NCBI RefSeq assembly: GCF_030812295.1
Contig: NZ_JAUSSK010000001.1
Coordinates: forward strand, 930,001 to 994,000
DNA from: Luteibacter jiangsuensis
Lineage (GTDB): Bacteria > Pseudomonadota > Gammaproteobacteria > Xanthomonadales > Rhodanobacteraceae
Direction of reading: 5' to 3'
Length of the DNA: 64,000 nucleotides
Of this stretch, positions 8,929 to 52,299 are shown piece by piece. Position numbers and translations under genes: made by a program. A model generated the notes under the pieces. It did not search any database, had not been told where the DNA came from, and worked only from the letters and a program-made list of their open reading frames with translations. Every line of letters begins with the position of its first letter. Position 1 is the first letter of the stretch.

Positions 8929-9692
8929 AGCGTCACTTCCTGTGGCAAACCCCAATGGGCTTCGTAGAGGGGACCGATGAAGGTCAGGCCTTCCGCGGGT
9001 GCCGTGGCGCCGGCGACTTCGCGGTCGCGGCCGGCGAGCAGTTCGGCCATCCAGCCCACGGGCTGCTCGCCGCGGCCGATGGGCAGCAGCGAGCCCACGA
9101 TGTTGCGCACCATGTGATGCAGGAAGGCGTTGGCCTCGATCTCCACCACCACGTGGATGTCTTCGCGGAACACGCGGATCGAGCGCACGTTGCGCCGCGC
9201 ATGCGCGGCCTGGCATGAGATCGCACGGAACGCGGAGAAATCGTGTTCGCCCACGATCGCCTGCGCCGCCTCGTGCATCGCCTCGGCATCGAGTGGCCGG
9301 CGCTCCCATGCCACGAAACGGGCGTCCAGCGCGGGACGGACGAAGCGCGGCAGGATGCGGTACCGGTAGCGGCGGCCCCGTGCGGAAAAACGCGCATGGA
9401 AATCGTCGGCCACCGGCAGCGCCCAGGTCACCGCCACGCTATGTGGCAGGTTCGAGCAGGCACCCAGGACCCAGCCCCGCATGTCACGCACCACGTCGGT
9501 GTCGAAGTGGACCACCTGGCAGCGGCCATGCACGCCGGCGTCCGTGCGCCCGGCGGCGGTGACTTCGATGGGCGCGTGGGCGACCCGGCTCAGCGCTTCC
9601 TCCAGCGACCCCTGCACGGTCTTCGCATGGCTGAGCCGCTGCCAGCCGCGGAAGTCGGTGCCGTCGTATTCGACGCCTAGGGCGATGCGCAT
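8925..9692 (-). CDS. truA: tRNA pseudouridine(38-40) synthase
   Basis: 255 residues; converts U38, U39 and U40 of the anticodon arm of many tRNAs to pseudouridine. The N-terminus reads [18 protein letters not shown], and the catalytic Asp is in [18 protein letters not shown]. The C-terminal [15 protein letters not shown] is also characteristic. It stands between fimV and trpF, as in Pseudomonas and Xanthomonas, except that an aquaporin gene and a REP array now separate it from fimV. It overlaps trpF by four bases. Confidence 0.97.
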
Positions 9693-10750: not shown

Positions 10751-13213
10751 TTAGACGATGTCGTTGAGGATCCGGCGGGCCGTGTCCTTCTGCATCTGCG
10801 AGCCTTCGGCGAGCACTTCGTCGAGCATCAGGCGGGCGCCTTCGGCGTCGCCCATGTCGAGGTAGGCGCGGGCCAGATCGAGCTTGGTGTCCACCGGGTC
10901 ATCGCTGAAGCTCTCCGGACCGTGGTCCTCGAGCGGCTCTTCGTCCGGGAAGGTGGGTTCGTCGAAACGGGGCACGTGACTGGTCGTCGTGGCCGGCTCG
11001 GCATGGCCACGGGAGGCGAGGTCATGCTCGTCCTCGAACGACCAGGTCGAGCGTTCCTCGTCCTTGGCGACCGTTTCATTACCGGCGACACTGCCGTTCG
11101 TCTCGTGCGGCTCGGCATAGGGCGATTCCGGCGCGTCGACATCGAACACGTCCGGGGCGCTCGGGCGGCGATCCGCCTCGGCGCGCTGCACCGGCGTCAG
11201 GTCGAAGTTGAAATGGTATTCGCTGTGCTTCTGCGGCGCCGGCTTCTGCGTGGGTTCTTCCTCATCCGGACCGGTGACGTAGTTGCCGAGGTCGAATTCC
11301 TCGAGCGCCGCGACTTCGTCCTCGTTGCGCGGACGCGAGGCGGTATAGGTGTCCTCGTACGGCTCGTCGACCTCGTCCACGGGGACGCCACCGAACAGCG
11401 GATGGCTGGGCGCGAGGTCCTCGCCCATCATCATCACTTCGCGCCATTCCGGCTGGTCCGGGTCGGCGACGTGGGCGAACATGGCTTCGGCCGCGGCTTC
11501 GAAATGCTCGACGTCGCGGCGGCCGTAGTAGAGGCTCACCAGTTCGAGGTGCAGGCCGATGTCGTCCGGATGCTCGGCCAGCGCATCGAGTATTTCGCGC
11601 TGGTCCTGGTCCATGATCTCGCTGGGTTCACCGAAACCGCCGAACGTGTGTTCCTGGCCGAAGCGGTCGGCCAGCGACGTGGCGCCGGCGGTGGCGGCGG
11701 CCTTCGGCTTCTTGCGGCCAAAGACGGCCGCGACCAACAGCAGCAGGATGACGATGGCGCCGCCACCCCAGGCCCAGGGCTGCATGTACCACGGGTCCTC
11801 TTCGACCGGAACGGGAGCGACCGGCGCCCGCTTCGTCACGGGCTTGGCGGCCGGAGGCGTCGCCGCCGAAGGTTCCTTGAGCGGCGAAATCGCCACGGTG
11901 GAGGCAGGCGCCGGAGCCGAAGCCGCCGGCGTGGCCGAGGCGACCACCGGTGAGGGCGCGCTGGCGGCGGCTGGAGCCGTGGGTGCCGGTGCCGGCGAGG
12001 TCGCGGCGGCGGCCGGCGTCGGCGCGCTCGCCACGGCGGGCTGGCCGGGAGCCTTCTGTGCCTCGGCCAGCTTGCGCTGGAGTTCGGCGATTTCGGAATC
12101 CTTGAGGCTCAGCAGGCGCTGGTTCTTGGAGTTGATTTCCTCGAGGTCGCCGATGCGCGATTTCAGTTCCTCGCCCTGCTGCTTGAGCGAAGCGACGCTT
12201 TCCTGCGAGGTGGCCAGTTGCTGCTTGAGGCCCACGACCTGCGCATCGCCCGTGCCGCCCTTGCTGCCCGCACGCGTGGAAGCGGCATCGCCACCGTCCT
12301 TGGAGGGAACGATGGCGAGGCGGTCGGTCGCCGGAGCGGCCGGCTTTCCTTCACCTTGGCCCGCGGGGGACGAGGCGGCATCGGCCACCACCGACGGCGC
12401 CCGCGTGGTGCCCGCGCGCCAGCTTTCGTTCTGGCGGCGCACTTCGGCCAGCGCCGACGCGGCGGACAATGCCTGCACGTCGTCGGTGGACGGAATGCGC
12501 AGAACGGCGCCTGTCTTCAGCGCGTTCATGTTGTCGCGGTAGAAGGCCTCCGGGTTGGCCTTCTGCAGTGCCACCAGCATCTGGTTCATGTCGGCGCCGC
12601 CCGCGTGCTGGCGGGCGATGGTCGACAGGGTCTGGCCGCGTTGCACCGGACCATAGGTGTCGCCAGGCGCCGCGGCAGCAGGGGCGGCCTTCGCGGGAGC
12701 CGCCTTGGTCGGTGCCTCCGCACGCGAAGGCCGGGCTTCGCTATGCGACGGTACGCGCGAGGGAACCTCGGAGGTACGCGACGGCTGTGCCGCCGACGCG
12801 GCCACCGCGGAATTCACCGGCGTACCCGGTGGATCGAGCAGCATGGTCACTTCGCGCACGACCTTGTTGCCGCCCGTGGACACCTCGACCAGGAAGTCGA
12901 GATACGTGTCGCGCACCGGCTCGGCGCTGCTGACCCGCACCACCGGCTGTCCGGACGCGTTCTTGCCCACGGCGAAGTTCAGGGCCACCGGCAAGCCGCC
13001 GCGATTCAGGCCGGCACGCGTGAAGGCTTCTTCCGAGGCCAGGGCGACATGGACATTATCGAGGTTGCCCGACACGCCGGTCAGAGGGATTTCCGCGGCC
13101 AGCGGCTGGTCCATCGTGGAACGGACCTGGACCGGGCCCAGGTTCTGCGCCAGGGCCTGACTGCCCCATGTGGCGAGCGCCAGCATGATCGAAAGCTTCA
13201 ACGTACGGTTCAT
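10751..13213 (-). CDS. fimV: FimV/HubP-family polar peptidoglycan-binding protein
   Basis: 820 residues. A signal peptide ([22 protein letters not shown]) leads into the FimV N-terminal domain, then a LysM module ([19 protein letters not shown], about residues 185-245), a coiled coil with [10 protein letters not shown], an Ala/Pro-rich linker, one membrane helix ([18 protein letters not shown], about 490) and an acidic cytoplasmic part ending in the conserved C-terminal FimV motif ([21 protein letters not shown]). FimV proteins organise cell poles, type IV pili and twitching. The start at 13213 precedes the signal peptide directly. It lies in the usual asd-fimV-truA context. Confidence 0.93.
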
Positions 13214-47150: not shown

Positions 47151-48476
47151 TCAGGCCAGGCGGCCGTAGAGGTCGTGCGCGTCGGCCTCTTCCACGACCA
47201 CGTCGATGAACTGGCCCGGCTTGAGCAACTGGCCGTCGTCGATGCGCACGGCACCGTCGATCTCCGGCGCGTCGGCGCTGGAGCGGCCCCAAGCACCTTC
47301 CGCGTCGATCTCGTCGACCAGCACCTTGATCGTCCTGCCGACCTTGCGTTGCAGCTTCGCGGCGGAAATCTCCGCCTGCACGGCCATGAACTGCTCCAGA
47401 CGGTCTTCCTTCAGTTCCTCGTCGATCTGCCCGGGCAGTTCGTTGGCGTTCGCGCCGTCCACCGGCGAGTAGGCGAACGCACCCACGCGATCGAGTTCCG
47501 CCTCGCGCAGGAAGTCGAGCAGCTCCTGGAACTCCTCGTTCGTCTCGCCGGGGAAGCCGACGATGAAGGTGCTGCGGATCGTGAGGTCCGGCACCTGGCG
47601 ACGCCAGTTCTGGATGCGCTCCAGCGTCTTGTCGACGTTGCCCGGGCGCTTCATGAGCTTGAGGATGCGCGGGCTGGCGTGCTGGAACGGAATGTCGAGA
47701 TACGGAAGGATCTTGCCCTCCGCCATCAACGGCATGACCTCGTCGACGTGCGGATACGGATAGACGTAATGCAGGCGTGTCCATGCGCCCAGTTCCGACA
47801 GGCCCTGGCAGAGTTCGGTCATGCGCGTGCGATAGGCCTTGCCCCGCCACTCGCGCTCGGCATAGCGGACATCCACGCCATAGGCGCTGGTGTCCTGCGA
47901 GATCACCAGCAGCTCCTTCACGCCCCCCTTCACCAGCTTCTCGGCCTCGAGCAACACCTGGTCGACCGGACGGCTGACGAGGTCGCCGCGCATCGAAGGG
48001 ATGATGCAGAAGCTGCAACGATGATTGCAGCCCTCGGAGATCTTCAGATACGCGTAGTGCTTGGGCGTGAGCTTCACCCCCGTGTCGGGCACGAGGTCGA
48101 TGAACTTGTTTCGCGTGGGCGGCAGGGCCGTGTGCACGGCGCTCATCACGCTGGCGTAGTCCTGCGGGCCGGTAATCGCGAGCACGTCCGGATAGCTTTC
48201 GCGGATCAGCGATTCGCGCTTGCCCAGGCAACCGGTGACGATCACCTTGCCGTTCTCGTGCAGCGCCTCGCCGATGGCGTCGAGCGATTCCTGCACGGCG
48301 GAATCGATGAATCCGCAGGTATTGACCACCACGGCATCCGCTTCGCCATAGCTGGGGACGATCTCGTAGCCTTCGACCTTGAGCTGGGTGAGGATGCGTT
48401 CGGAATCGACGAGCGCCTTCGGACAGCCCAAGGATACTATGCCAATACGGTTTCCGACTCGGGCTGAAGCGTTCAT
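47151..48476 (-). CDS. rimO: Ribosomal protein S12 methylthiotransferase RimO
   Basis: 441 residues from [12 protein letters not shown]. It is a radical-SAM enzyme that adds a methylthio group to Asp88 of S12. The N-terminal UPF0004 domain has [14 protein letters not shown] and [16 protein letters not shown]; the radical-SAM CxxxCxxC is in [18 protein letters not shown]; a TRAM domain ends the protein. The first 20 or so codons use AT-rich triplets (ATA, GTA, TTG, TGT) unlike the rest, and a second, broken rimO start lies at 51047-51148. The 5' end therefore seems to have been replaced. ATG 48506 is an alternative start. Confidence 0.93.
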
Positions 48477-48511
48477 GGCAGGTGTATTCAAGGCTAAAAA
48501 CGGCATAGTAT
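48434..48511. repeat. 10-bp inverted repeat around the rimO start
   Basis: ATACTATGCC at 48434-48443 and its exact complement GGCATAGTAT at 48502-48511, spaced by 58 bp across the rimO start. It lies at the left boundary of the proposed island. It may be a recombinase arm site, an operator or chance. Confidence 0.5.
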
Positions 48512-48737
48512 ACAGCTATTTGCGATTCAGCGATGCTCGACAGTGCACTGGTCACGGCGCAGACCGCCAGGCACAGTGCGTCGAACGGTGAGCGCGATCG
48601 AGACCTGGTGCTCGACAGGCCCTGCCCCTCCCGGACGAGGGCCTGAGCGCCTTCCGCCAGCGGCATGTCACCTAGGGCGCCGCAAAGGAAAGGAGATATC
48701 CCCTGACATCATCACCGGCTTGCGCCTGAACTACTTT

Positions 48738-49034
48738 CTATTGCGTCAAGTTCAGGTAAATACCAGCCACGAACAGCACGAGCGCCGCGACGGTCACGAG
48801 TTTTGCCGTCATGGGTGTGCGATATGTCCCCGCCCGAGCCTGCGTGTAGACCCCTCGAATCGAGTTGCCCAAAGGCGGCCCCGGCGTAAACGCCATGTTC
48901 CATGCGAGCAGTAGCATCGATGCCATGATTAGGAAATTGGCTGGCGTCGGTCGCCACAAGGCGTAGGCGACACCGCCCACGGCGAAAACGACGGCCAGAG
49001 CAGTGGCGCTTCTTGTTGATCCAGCCGTATTCAT
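48738..49034 (-). CDS. Small membrane protein (island)
   Basis: 98 residues with three hydrophobic segments (SATALAVVFAVGGVAYALW, ANFLIMASMLLLAWNMAF, LVTVAALVLFVAGIYL) and a short polar stretch with GNSIRGVYTQARAGTYR. The ATG at 49034 has GGGAGAG about 7 nt upstream. No family is recognised. It lies 13 bp after the glycine-rich secreted protein gene and is probably co-transcribed with it. The 230 bp between it and rimO hold no gene I can support. Codon use is less GC-rich than in flanking core genes. Confidence 0.65.
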   Translation of the reverse strand: MNTAGSTRSATALAVVFAVGGVAYALWRPTPANFLIMASMLLLAWNMAFTPGPPLGNSIRGVYTQARAGTYRTPMTAKLVTVAALVLFVAGIYLNLTQ

Positions 49035-49047
49035 CGCATCTCTCCCG

Positions 49048-50109
49048 TTACCAACCGCAGCCGCCACCGGCGTCATAGTACTCCTGCATCGGCTCCGCGA
49101 CGTTCCAGTCCGCATCGAACTGCACCGTCGCACCTCCTGTATTGGTGACGGGATACCCGAACAAGGCGTCGTAGGCCGATTGGTAATGGCCACGCTCTAC
49201 TTCCGTGATAGCCGCCTGGGCGGCCTCGATGCTACCCGCGATCGTGCCGCCGATCGCGTCACTCAGGCTCGGGTCGTAGTTTTCGATCAGGTAGTTGATT
49301 CCCGTCCCGATCGCGGTGCCTGCCGCCGCGGCGGGCAACACGCGTTGAGAGGCAAAAAGCGTTGTCTCGGACAGTGCACTTGCGGGGCTCAGGCTGCCGA
49401 CAGGAGCGGTGCGGAAATCAAGGTAGATCTCCTCCAGCGTCATGTCCGTGGTCGGGGCGGCCGCCGCGCTGCCTCCGCCCGTGCTCCCACCACCTGCCGA
49501 GCCACCGCCACCACCCTCCTCGCCGCCACCTGGGAGCAAGTCAGGCTGCACCGTGGACACCTGCGCGGCAAAGGATGCGCGCACCGCGTTACCCGAATAT
49601 TTTGTGACAGCCGCACGCACTGCGGCGCTATCGAACGCTCGGGCGACGCGCAATAGGGCCTTGTCGCTCAATCGCTTCGCGAAGGTGGAAAGCAGCGGCG
49701 TGTCGTGTGTGCCGCGCGTGCGCTGGTAGTGCTTCGCGATCGCTGCAAGTTCTTTGTCAGATAATCGGCCGATCAATTGCTCGGTCGAAGCGGCGGCGAA
49801 GTTGGCTTCGATCACGTCACCGAAGTTGTTATCCACGCTCTTCTCGTCCGCACCAATGACCCTCACCGATGCACCGGTCGGCGCGTGTGTGGTTAGGCCA
49901 CTCCGAATGCTCGCAGTGAGATTCAATGATTTAGGTGTCCCTGCGGTACGCAGGTCCGCCCACGGGTCACCACCGCCATCGCCACCATCGCAGACCGGCA
50001 TGAGGTCGGATCTAACGGTGACTGGCGCGGTAGAGCCGGCAAATGCCATCGCGCTGACGGCGGACGTCGCCAGCGCGATGGCGGCTGCGAGTGCAATACG
50101 ATTCTTCAT
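49048..50109 (-). CDS. Secreted glycine-rich protein of unknown function (island)
   Basis: 353 residues. There is a clear signal peptide (MKNRIALAAAIALATSAVSA) and an AAGGAAG ribosome site. The mature part starts with an acidic Gly-rich stretch (VCDGGDGGGDPW), continues with a helical domain (LSDKELAAIAKHYQRTRG, RLSDKALLRVARAF), a second Gly/Ser-rich linker (GGGEEGGGGGSAGGGSTGGG), then MTLEEIYLDFRTAPVGSL and a hydrophobic small-residue segment (AAAAGTAIGTGINYLI, IGGTIAGSIEAA), and ends YYDAGGGCGW. No catalytic motif is recognised. The glycine-zipper-like segment could enter membranes, but this is inference. It is followed by a small membrane protein gene. Confidence 0.7.
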   Translation of the reverse strand: MKNRIALAAAIALATSAVSAMAFAGSTAPVTVRSDLMPVCDGGDGGGDPWADLRTAGTPKSLNLTASIRSGLTTHAPTGASVRVIGADEKSVDNNFGDVIEANFAAASTEQLIGRLSDKELAAIAKHYQRTRGTHDTPLLSTFAKRLSDKALLRVARAFDSAAVRAAVTKYSGNAVRASFAAQVSTVQPDLLPGGGEEGGGGGSAGGGSTGGGSAAAAPTTDMTLEEIYLDFRTAPVGSLSPASALSETTLFASQRVLPAAAAGTAIGTGINYLIENYDPSLSDAIGGTIAGSIEAAQAAITEVERGHYQSAYDALFGYPVTNTGGATVQFDADWNVAEPMQEYYDAGGGCGW

Positions 50110-50446
50110 GAATTCACTTCCTTGAAAATCCCCCTGCAAGGAAGACCGTATTTGCAGGCGATGACTGCGCCAACCCGGCAGGAAAACGCGAGTTCGCGAA
50201 AACGTGCGGCGGTCCGTTCAGAGTTTCCATTCAACGGGCTGACGTGCATGGGCGCCTAACGCGTCGAGTAGGCATTCGCCTACAAGAAACCTTGCGAAAA
50301 GCCCTTTTTCGGCAGTCGCGTTCTGTGACGTGATTGGCATTCCAATGCGCTATGCCACCGCCCGCGACCGAGGCCCTATCCCAACGGAGCCTAGGCGACC
50401 AAAGTCCCTACAGCCCCCGGCACTGAAAAAGACAATCTTGCTAACG
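50110..50446. other. Intergenic region without a supported gene
   Basis: About 337 bp between the secreted-protein gene and the next small gene. It contains the ribosome site and promoter region of the secreted protein at its left end. I see no convincing ORF, tRNA or strong terminator. Base composition is mixed, with AAAAGCCCTTTTTCGG near 50297 that could form only a weak stem. Confidence 0.5.
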
Positions 50447-50794
50447 CTAGCTTGTCAGGCGATACCCGATCCAAACTCGCCGTAAATGGGTGACAAGGAC
50501 GAGCAATGCGATCAGAAACAGCGATAGGGCGGCGAAGGGAATATCCATGGCGGCAAACGTCTCTTGCTTTAGCACCGGCGGAAACACGAAGATCACTGCG
50601 CCGACGACGGCAACAGCCACACGACTCGGAAAAAGCGCCCATAGACTCACTATCACACCGGCGCCCGTGAGGAAGCCGATGTCAAGGAAATGGGCGTCCT
50701 CATTCACCTGGTACCAGCCGTAGCGCATTTTGAACGTCGCGTAGCTCGCGGCTAGGCCAAAGCATGCAAGAACCAAGAACAGAGCGATCTTCAC
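50447..50794 (-). CDS. Small three-helix membrane protein (island)
   Basis: 115 residues from the GTG at 50794, which has GGAG 7 nt upstream. It has hydrophobic segments at about 2-18 (IALFLVLACFGLAASYA), 38-54 (IGFLTGAGVIVSLWALF), 58-73 (VAVAVVGAVIFVFPP) and 85-103 (IPFAALSLFLIALLVLV). No family is recognised. It starts 4 bp after the stop of a truncated upstream reading frame (50799-51050). In effector-immunity cassettes a small membrane protein often directly follows a toxin C-terminus, so an immunity role is possible but unproven. Confidence 0.65.
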   Translation of the reverse strand: MKIALFLVLACFGLAASYATFKMRYGWYQVNEDAHFLDIGFLTGAGVIVSLWALFPSRVAVAVVGAVIFVFPPVLKQETFAAMDIPFAALSLFLIALLVLVTHLRRVWIGYRLTS

Positions 50795-50798
50795 GGGC

Positions 50799-51050
50799 CT
50801 ACTCCGCAAACTGTTGGCTGTCGATGATGTCATGCTGGTTCTTTTGCCACGTCTGTTCGACCTGGGGTGCCCAAATACTTTGCAGCAGTGGATTCTGGTG
50901 CCAGTCATTGCCTTCACCATAACTGCGAAGGGTGGTTGTGCCATCGCTGTTTTTTTCGCCGAAGCGCATGACGTAGCCTTCGGCCAGCTTATGCTCCCCT
51001 GCGATGGTGTAATTCACGACGATGTCGGAATACTTCGCTGGATTTTCTTC
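50799..51050 (-). pseudogene. C-terminal relic of an unidentified protein
   Basis: About 80 codons that look real (KYSDIVVNYTIAGEHKLAEG, YVMRFGEKNSDGTTTLRSYG, WAPQVEQTWQKNQHDII) and end in a proper stop, yet no start or N-terminal part precedes them. Upstream, the frame turns into an Arg/Pro-rich shadow, and the DNA instead matches the start of rimO in another frame. It reads as the 3' end of a gene cut by recombination near 51047. The residue pattern suggests a C-terminal domain of a larger exported or effector-type protein; the family is not recognised. Confidence 0.6.
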
Positions 51051-51148
51051 GGGCAGCCGAGCGAAACGAATCCGACTTTGGGAGCGGCCTGGGACGTTGC
51101 CGTGAGTGCCGGAGAGAGGAAACCGCGCACTATAAACTCGTCCCGCAT
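51047..51148 (-). pseudogene. rimO: 5' relic of rimO
   Basis: On the minus strand this stretch encodes TATSQAAPKVGFVSLGCPK. The last eleven residues match the N-terminus of E. coli RimO (KIGFVSLGCPK) with one conservative change. The similarity stops at CCCGAAG (51047-51053); the next bases belong to the relic frame above. The intact rimO lies 2.6 kb away and carries SLGCPK in a different codon context. I read this as the ancestral rimO start, left behind when the island entered. The upstream start codon (ATG 51148 or a later GTG) is uncertain. Confidence 0.7.
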
Positions 51149-51627: not shown

Positions 51628-52299
51628 ATGGGCCGCACCCTGATCCTCGACACCTCCCGCCCCCACGAAAGCATGGACGCCTACCTGGCCGAACCTTCGG
51701 GCGCGCCCAAGGGCGGCATCGTGGTGATCCAGGAGATCTTCGGTGTGAACGCGCACATCCGCAGCGTGGCCGACCGCTTCGCTGCGGAGGGCTATGTCGC
51801 CATCGCGCCCGCCCTGTTCGACCCCGTGCAAAAAGGCGTGGAACTGGGCTACGACCATGAAGGCGTGCAGAAAGGCAGCAAGCTGATCGCCGAACTCGGC
51901 CTGCTCCGGCCCATGCAGGACAGCGCCATCGCCGCCAGTCTCATCGCCGACCAATACAAGGTGAAGGTGGGTACGGTCGGCTATTGCTGGGGCGGCACGG
52001 TGGCCGTGTTGGCCGCCTTGCGCCTCGGCCTGCCCTCGTCGAGCTACTACGGTTCGAGGAACGTCCCCTTCCTGCCTGAACCGGCCAAGGCCAACGTGAT
52101 CTTCCACTTCGGCGAGCGCGACCATTCGATCCCGCCGGAGATGGTGGAAAAGCACCGCGAACTGAAACCGGAAATGGATACCTGGGTCTATCCGGCCGAC
52201 CACGGTTTCAATTGCGACGCCCGCGCCAGCTATGACGAACCGAGTTCGAAGCTCGCCTGGGAGCGGACCCTGGCCTTCTTCGCCCGCGAACTCAAGTGA
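51628..52299 (+). CDS. Dienelactone hydrolase family protein
   Basis: 223-residue alpha/beta hydrolase. The nucleophile is Cys in VGYCWGGTVAVLAAL (about residue 119), the Asp is in HFGERDHSIPP and the His in YPADHGFNCDAR, the Cys-Asp-His triad of the DLH family. Early motifs are GGIVVIQEIFGVNAHI and ADRFAAEGYVAIAPALFD. The classical reaction opens dienelactone to maleylacetate, but most chromosomal homologues have other, unknown substrates. The HIT-protein GTG overlaps its stop, so they form an operon. Confidence 0.93.
   Translation: MGRTLILDTSRPHESMDAYLAEPSGAPKGGIVVIQEIFGVNAHIRSVADRFAAEGYVAIAPALFDPVQKGVELGYDHEGVQKGSKLIAELGLLRPMQDSAIAASLIADQYKVKVGTVGYCWGGTVAVLAALRLGLPSSSYYGSRNVPFLPEPAKANVIFHFGERDHSIPPEMVEKHRELKPEMDTWVYPADHGFNCDARASYDEPSSKLAWERTLAFFARELK

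Follow-up and report, generated by a model that had tools for sequence, protein, structure and literature searches.

According to the cited passages of the published account, sequencing of the lysogen placed Burkholderia phage JC1 within the 5′ end of rimO, next to the serine recombinase gene of the phage; the attachment sites share an 18-bp overlap with one mismatch, and an ATG placed 15 bp upstream of the phage attachment site (attP) keeps RimO in frame (PMC9144972). For the dusA-associated islands and prophages, the corresponding passages report that the 5′ end of a conserved RNA-modification gene is replaced by element sequence, propose -10 and -35 sites after insertion, and name rimO of Polaromonas naphthalenivorans as a further target (PMC4482086). 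A table of prophages gives RimO as the integration site of J1_pp_2, a serine-recombinase prophage of Variovorax boronicumulans (PMC9658991); an island or integrative and conjugative element (ICE) of Acidithiobacillus ferrooxidans is listed with rimO as its bacterial attachment site, attB (PMC10322971); and the phage-like SpyCI islands are described as occupying the 5′ end of mutL, which is rescued by an island-encoded promoter (PMC3430984). Here we analyse a 2.6-kb island at the rimO locus of Luteibacter jiangsuensis, within a window of 64,000 nucleotides (the whole stretch of DNA under study; features in Table 1). The island is confirmed to be what remains of an element whose integration within codons 17-20 of rimO gave the gene a new 5′ end, and it is a decayed example of the already known rimO-integrating type of phage.

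An earlier, sequence-only reading of the window had proposed that an element entered the 5′ end of rimO and brought a new start with it, by analogy with other target genes. This idea is supported by the relic of the old 5′ end, by a prophage at the same site in a congener and by phage attP sequences, although rimO itself proves to be a published target, that of JC1 (PMC9144972). As expected of JC1-type phages, the old 5′ end is kept at the far end of the island, on the side of the right attachment site (attR). The relic does derive from rimO, as that reading supposed, and is longer than had been noted: positions 51047-51134 form a gap-free alignment with the rimO promoter, start and first codons of two congeners, G012 and G013 (76/88 bp, E 7e-25). 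Since the 88-bp match spans all three, a chance repeat or an unrelated gene is ruled out as its source. Within the relic the start codon has changed from ATG to ACG (51097-51095) and the promoter hexamer from TATAAT to TATAGT. The gene now in use, correctly described before as intact up to 48476, encodes a 441-residue product that matches TIGR01125 (E 1.3e-174, NCBIfam). Both junctions have a common core inside the rimO codons for G-C-P-K, again as expected of JC1-type phages; its coordinates had been given correctly, CTTCGGACAGCC at 48417-48428 and CTTCGGGCAGCC at 51047-51058, with one mismatch between them.

The comparison took in 23 genomes of the genus, that of the window (G000) and 22 others. 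In 19 of them the ordinary start KVGFVSLGCPK or KIGFVSLGCPK runs directly into ALVDSERI, as the sequence-only reading had envisaged for an empty site. The relic is this usual start and, as had been claimed, stands nearer to the customary RimO N-terminus than the present start of the window gene does; that all relatives share the new start is ruled out by the same count. A replaced start is found in the remaining four genomes (G000, G007, G010 and G019), every one of which retains an old 5′ end upstream. A dienelactone hydrolase gene, commonly the neighbour on the upstream side of rimO, lies about 125-190 bp from it in 8 of the 19 ordinary-start genomes, and this arrangement is the empty site; in the other 11, 0.65-3.0 kb of other DNA separates the two genes.

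In G019, about 40.4 kb separate the old promoter and start from a rimO gene whose start is of the window type. This insert is a prophage: all seven non-integrase open reading frames (ORFs) submitted match PHROG families (terminase, portal, scaffold, major head, two baseplate families and endolysin). Adjoining rimO, and divergent from it, is an intact gene for a 544-residue large serine recombinase (PF00239 and PF07508), whose nearest phage homologues belong to Burkholderia phages JC1 (58% identity) and Bcep176 (56%), Pseudomonas phage LPPA36 (51%) and Xanthomonas phage Rb1 (50%); two viral contigs are closer still, L104 at 85% and L106 at 71%. The divergent, rimO-adjacent recombinase gene expected of JC1-type phages is also present in the window, as a pseudogene, so that the earlier statement that no recombinase remains was wrong. 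Positions 48493-48684 match residues 2-66 of the G019 enzyme (61% identity, E 7.6e-15) with one TGA and one TAG inside, and a second, weak fragment at 48651-48734 suggests, from the part of the protein to which it corresponds, a large internal deletion. Across the genus the G019 recombinase finds matches only in G019 itself and in the window (2/23); PF07508 also occurs twice elsewhere in the window genome, both times on a different contig.

The first 18 or so codons of rimO in the window are element-derived. In JC1, L104 and L106, where rimO does not follow, an ATG and an open frame ending in IGIVSLGCP lie just outside the recombinase gene and are succeeded by phage sequence; the window rimO start is in frame and of the same type as these attP-encoded starts. 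Read as R-I-G-I-V-S, the half-site DNA, CGTATAGGTATAGTATCC, accounts for the ATA and GTA codons of the window gene. From residue 2-8 onward the product is 91-96% identical to those of the 22 congeners. The unusual codon usage remarked on earlier is real for ATA, GTA and TGT, each of which occurs once within codons 1-20 and nowhere in the other 421, and less so for TTG, found once there and three times in the remaining codons; TGT is moreover not diagnostic of the new start, because some ordinary-start relatives have it there too. An exact pattern for the P half-site and core was matched by three viral contigs and by none of the 369 genomes drawn from the class, which indicates that the arm is too variable for an exact search. 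At four further loci (L113, L119, L154 and L093) the RimO mimic in attP has altered residues (ISFIALGCP, IHFISLGCP, IAMISLGCP), and lysogens of these phages would have altered RimO N-termini.

In serine recombinases the centre of dyad symmetry of the site is the crossover dinucleotide. The best dyad centre falls on the TG of the Cys codon in all nine attP sites examined, namely eight distinct sites not followed by rimO and one assembled from the G019 ends, and from this equivalence strand exchange at TG is inferred. Dyad scores ranged from 12 to 17 of 23, against a best-centre mean of 10 and a maximum of 15 in 500 shuffles of one site, so that, with single scores not all beyond the shuffles, the argument is one of agreement of position. 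In the window the crossover most likely took place at the TG of the rimO Cys codon, at 48425-48424; we take this Cys to be one of the N-terminal cluster cysteines of RimO's enzyme family.

The best explanation of these results, and in our judgement very probably the right one, is that a temperate phage with a large serine recombinase, or a derivative of such a phage, integrated in rimO, supplied its start and then decayed. Recombination between attP and attB would have occurred inside rimO, most likely at the TG of the conserved cysteine codon (GGC TGT CCG AAG). The P half-site of attP in such phages, read in the rimO direction, already encodes a start codon and RimO residues, and integration would have severed the old promoter and start while restoring the frame with a start from the phage, from which reading proceeds outward, away from the divergent recombinase gene. 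Decay would then have turned the recombinase gene into a pseudogene, removed the P′ arm together with any phage genes and altered the old start codon; a few cargo genes would have stayed, and the phage-derived 5′ end now serves as the rimO start.

Several observations weigh against this account. None of the island ORFs submitted (four to Pfam, two to PHROGs and three to NCBIfam) is a phage structural or replication gene. A P′ half-site is not recognisable beside the old 5′ end in the window, where by inspection the core leads straight into the RHS fragment; in G019 and G006 a TATA-rich arm comes after the old 5′ end, with a resembling sequence in G007 and G010, and the window arm was presumably lost by deletion. 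With neither a structural gene nor a P′ arm in the window, a full-phage origin of the island rests on G019. Two of the four nearest phage recombinases, those of Bcep176 and LPPA36, have no adjoining RimO mimic, and recombinase similarity alone consequently does not predict the target. In G091 and G204, two more distant genomes with rimO-adjacent recombinases, neither a second rimO 5′ end (sought by motif) nor the hydrolase neighbour was found in about 58 kb. G007 shares cargo with the window yet has a different kind of new start, and one simple history is insufficient. Finally, a scan for the sigma-70 consensus near the new rimO start found no promoter.

The small size of what is left, 2.6 kb of accessory genes in which no phage structural gene was found, would also suit an island that never was a phage but a small mobile element, which used the same recombinase or was mobilised in trans and later lost the recombinase; ICE or island insertions at rimO are indeed listed for Acidithiobacillus (PMC10322971). 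However, a member of the same genus carries at the same site a prophage with head, tail and lysis genes, and close homologues of its recombinase sit in phage genomes and viral contigs, and we consider an origin without a phage rather unlikely. Duplication, followed by homologous recombination with a divergent transferred rimO, might in principle leave a second rimO 5′ end as well, and exchange at the locus probably does occur, since in G006 an ordinary start has apparently been put back beside the old copy. Such a transfer is already contradicted by the match of the new 5′ sequence to phage attP; the recombinase relic adjoins that sequence, and the junction core is identical to that of G019, which leaves this explanation highly improbable.

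With integration of the phage the old promoter is removed, and rimO therefore needs a new one. The gap between the recombinase gene and the new rimO start is short, and the rimO strand of the recombinase codons preceding Y-S-Y reads TATACT in both G019 and the window, where it may be a -10 element antisense to the catalytic motif. For a wider comparison, 158 loci were reduced to 56 distinct upstream sequences (the window relic not among them) by dropping duplicates and loci with no recognised motif or less than 150 nt upstream; elements were classed as adjacent if a rimO start or attP mimic lay within 115 nt of the motif. TATACT or TAAACT occurs in 27 of the 30 adjacent elements and in 4 of the 26 others, and the final T in 28/30 against 8/26 (Fisher p 9e-7, uncorrected for relatedness). 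When third positions were scanned over 45 codons, only codons 1 and 2, the two that precede Y-S-Y, had an excess of A/T or of A in the adjacent group at p < 0.05 (codon 1, A/T p 9e-6; codon 2, A/T p 0.012 and A alone p 5.5e-5). That group is otherwise the more G/C-rich at third positions (0.76 vs 0.65), and elsewhere in it A-ending codons make up 15% of Lys/Arg codons and GTA with GTT 20% of Val codons. At ten loci rimO is present but not adjacent: none of the seven with 0.85-1.4 kb between has both bases, and the other three (L077, L198 and L201) do. Within the window, 48507-48533 is identical to G019 at 26 of 27 bp, compared with 156 of 232 in the rest of the alignment, a difference whose p value (7e-4) is indicative only because the block was picked after the alignment had been seen.

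Taken together, these comparisons make it likely that a rimO promoter is hidden opposite the catalytic codons of the recombinase. The codon bias could instead stem from the A/T richness of gene starts, or from shared ancestry of rimO-adjacent recombinases, with no promoter involved. The Fisher test takes the sequences, which are related, to be more independent than they are; codon 3 (Tyr) also differs between the groups, in the opposite direction; the A/T difference at codon 2 is modest; and the three non-adjacent loci that keep both bases, like the negative consensus scan, fit this view. On the other hand, codons 1 and 2 stand alone among the 45 in a group that is otherwise richer in G/C, the recombinases are diverse in source (the window's own order, Burkholderia and a gammaproteobacterial metagenome-assembled genome among others), and the 27-bp block, albeit chosen afterwards, has been retained in the window although the recombinase is dead. 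A bias of this origin is possible, if somewhat doubtful. In six viral contigs (L190, L191, L195, L202, L205 and L223) an ORF of 303-402 amino acids stands between rimO and the recombinase, and the gap between them is a possible cargo slot in this phage group.

Comparison of the rimO body in the window with that in G009, G012 and G013 gives a ratio of nonsynonymous to synonymous substitution rates (dN/dS) of 0.036-0.071, which is close to the range obtained for four ordinary-start pairs (0.010-0.050). Judged by these ratios, the window gene is under purifying selection although the element is dead. As the old ATG is both mutated and severed from the gene, only the phage-derived start remains, and the swap of starts looks locked in and permanent. 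It is tempting to suggest that the 5′ end does double duty throughout, the attP half-site being binding site and RimO code at once and the promoter lying antisense to the V-Y-S-Y-L-R-F-S codons, with the need of the host making the swap irreversible; we lean slightly towards this proposal. If it is true, the host gene needs the phage stretch, and the stretch therefore outlives the prophage, with catalytic codons kept as a promoter. In the open-access literature searched, the use of attP as coding sequence as a rule, the antisense promoter and the permanent swap were not found in print.

In a tree built from the rimO body (25 rows, including three outgroup rows) the four replaced-start genomes do not form a clade, and four changes are required, at least three of them forced by well-supported branches; G007 is not sister to the window genome. 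One draft genome, G017 (L016), was left out of the tree because of an internal TAG in its rimO frame, either a sequencing error or a real loss. G010 (L032, 18634) and G007 (L033, 1776) have a second kind of new rimO start, a GTG followed by K-N-x-V-N-S-T; ahead of it lies a short frame, MPKR..., with a stop codon that abuts or overlaps the GTG. This type did not turn up in any of the remaining 231 of the 233 family genomes, nor, by exact pattern, in viral contigs, nor in phage records. G006 (L045) contains the ordinary rimO promoter and start twice, at oriented positions 9123-9207 and 12029-12121, 2.9 kb apart, with the TATA-rich arm after the first copy and, between the copies, a gene 92% identical to the PF00144 beta-lactamase-fold gene of G010. 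It looks like a former insertion at which the ordinary host start was apparently restored later by homologous recombination. Ten genus members (L034, L035, L042, L044 and L047-L052) have a single ordinary start and 0.65-2.2 kb of extra DNA before the hydrolase gene, in which no second rimO 5′ end was found.

A search of 398 genomes of the order with the G019 recombinase (E 1e-20) gave 13 matches in 11 genomes. Three of the 13 have rimO in the locus (G019, G091 and G204), while six closely related and four distant ones do not; at E 1e-80 there was no match in the 369 class genomes drawn, a sample without a positive control. The rimO-adjacent recombinase of G091 (L084) has a stop and a frame break and may be a second decaying case. 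Six loci from the same bacterial family (L080-L083, L090 and L091) have recombinases 63-65% identical to that of G019 and no rimO within 1.5 kb, and these enzymes probably use another target.

The cargo of the window island consists of accessory genes. For the hydrophobic protein of about 98 residues there was no NCBIfam match at E 0.01 and no Pfam match above the cut-off, and for the 353-residue protein no match in Pfam, PHROG or NCBIfam; relatives of the latter occur in 9 further genomes of the 233, and in the two where they were placed, G009 and G005, they lie far from rimO. The 132-residue protein has its counterpart in a gene at the same place in G007. There too, the RHS fragment is 89% identical over 81 residues to the end of a 314-residue ORF that matches TIGR03696 (Rhs_assc_core, E 4.4e-18); no phage record matched the fragment. 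An RHS tip and a small gene that accompanies it often make up a toxin and immunity pair, and the 132-residue protein is perhaps an immunity-type partner of the RHS fragment.

Table 1. Positions of rimO, of the island and of its flank in the window
Feature	Coordinates	Strand	Remarks
rimO (ribosomal protein S12 methylthiotransferase)	47151-48476	-	intact, 441 aa, ATG at 48476
Core at the left attachment site (attL), rimO codons 17-20 (GGC TGT CCG AAG)	48417-48428	-	recurs at 51047-51058 with one mismatch
P half-site, doubling as RimO residues N-R-I-G-I-V-S-L	48429-48452	-	by-eye comparison with attP of JC1, L104 and L106 and attL of G019
Element-supplied rimO start, ATG and first codons (MNASARVG)	48453-48476	-	counterpart MNVAVRAP, same position and type, in G019 and L104/L106
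Large serine recombinase relic, N-terminal part	48493-48684	+	start codon lost, stops, frameshifts
Putative rimO -10 element, TATACT	48507-48512	-	antisense to recombinase catalytic motif
Short weak recombinase fragment	48651-48734	+	matches aa 312-339; tblastn 16/28 identical, E 5e-4 (7-kb target)
Small accessory protein, ~98 aa, hydrophobic by inspection	48738-49034	-	ORF
Accessory cargo protein, 353 aa, signal-peptide-like start by inspection	49048-50109	-	ORF
132-aa protein, membrane-type by inspection	50447-50845	-	72% identical over 152 aa (longer ORF form) to G007
Orphan C-terminal end of RHS protein, last 84 aa	50799-51053	-	truncated at junction with relic
Relic of original rimO promoter, start and first codons, attR side	51047-51134	-	76/88 bp identical to G012/G013
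Dienelactone hydrolase gene, usual upstream neighbour of rimO (flank)	51628-52299	+	PF01738, E 6.6e-38

The locus illustrates that a conserved gene can be the target of an element and yet stay unbroken, and that the death of the element leaves behind a host gene dependent on a start of viral origin. A start encoded in attP also offers a sequence rule by which such elements and their remnants may be found, through comparison of rimO 5′ ends. Large serine recombinases with known natural targets are wanted for genome engineering, and the target here is a highly conserved block of codons.

Among the systems introduced at the outset, the dusA-associated islands place a dusA-specific integrase in dusA, and their integrases are reportedly tyrosine recombinases; the window differs in its target, rimO, and the recombinase of G019 has the domains PF00239 and PF07508. 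SpyCI differs from the window in host and target and, as its cited description has it, in dynamic excision and reintegration. The rimO islands of A. ferrooxidans are large elements, for which the cited passages list no integrase and describe no replacement of the start. J1_pp_2 is alike in its RimO site and its serine recombinase, and is a table entry with no start replacement described in it. Closest is JC1, which resembles the G019 prophage in its large serine recombinase (58% identical) and in its use of the rimO 5′ end as integration site. JC1, however, is by its published description an active phage that forms a stable lysogen, whereas the island in the window is an immobile remnant in another bacterial order, and the start that it supplied to rimO looks permanent.

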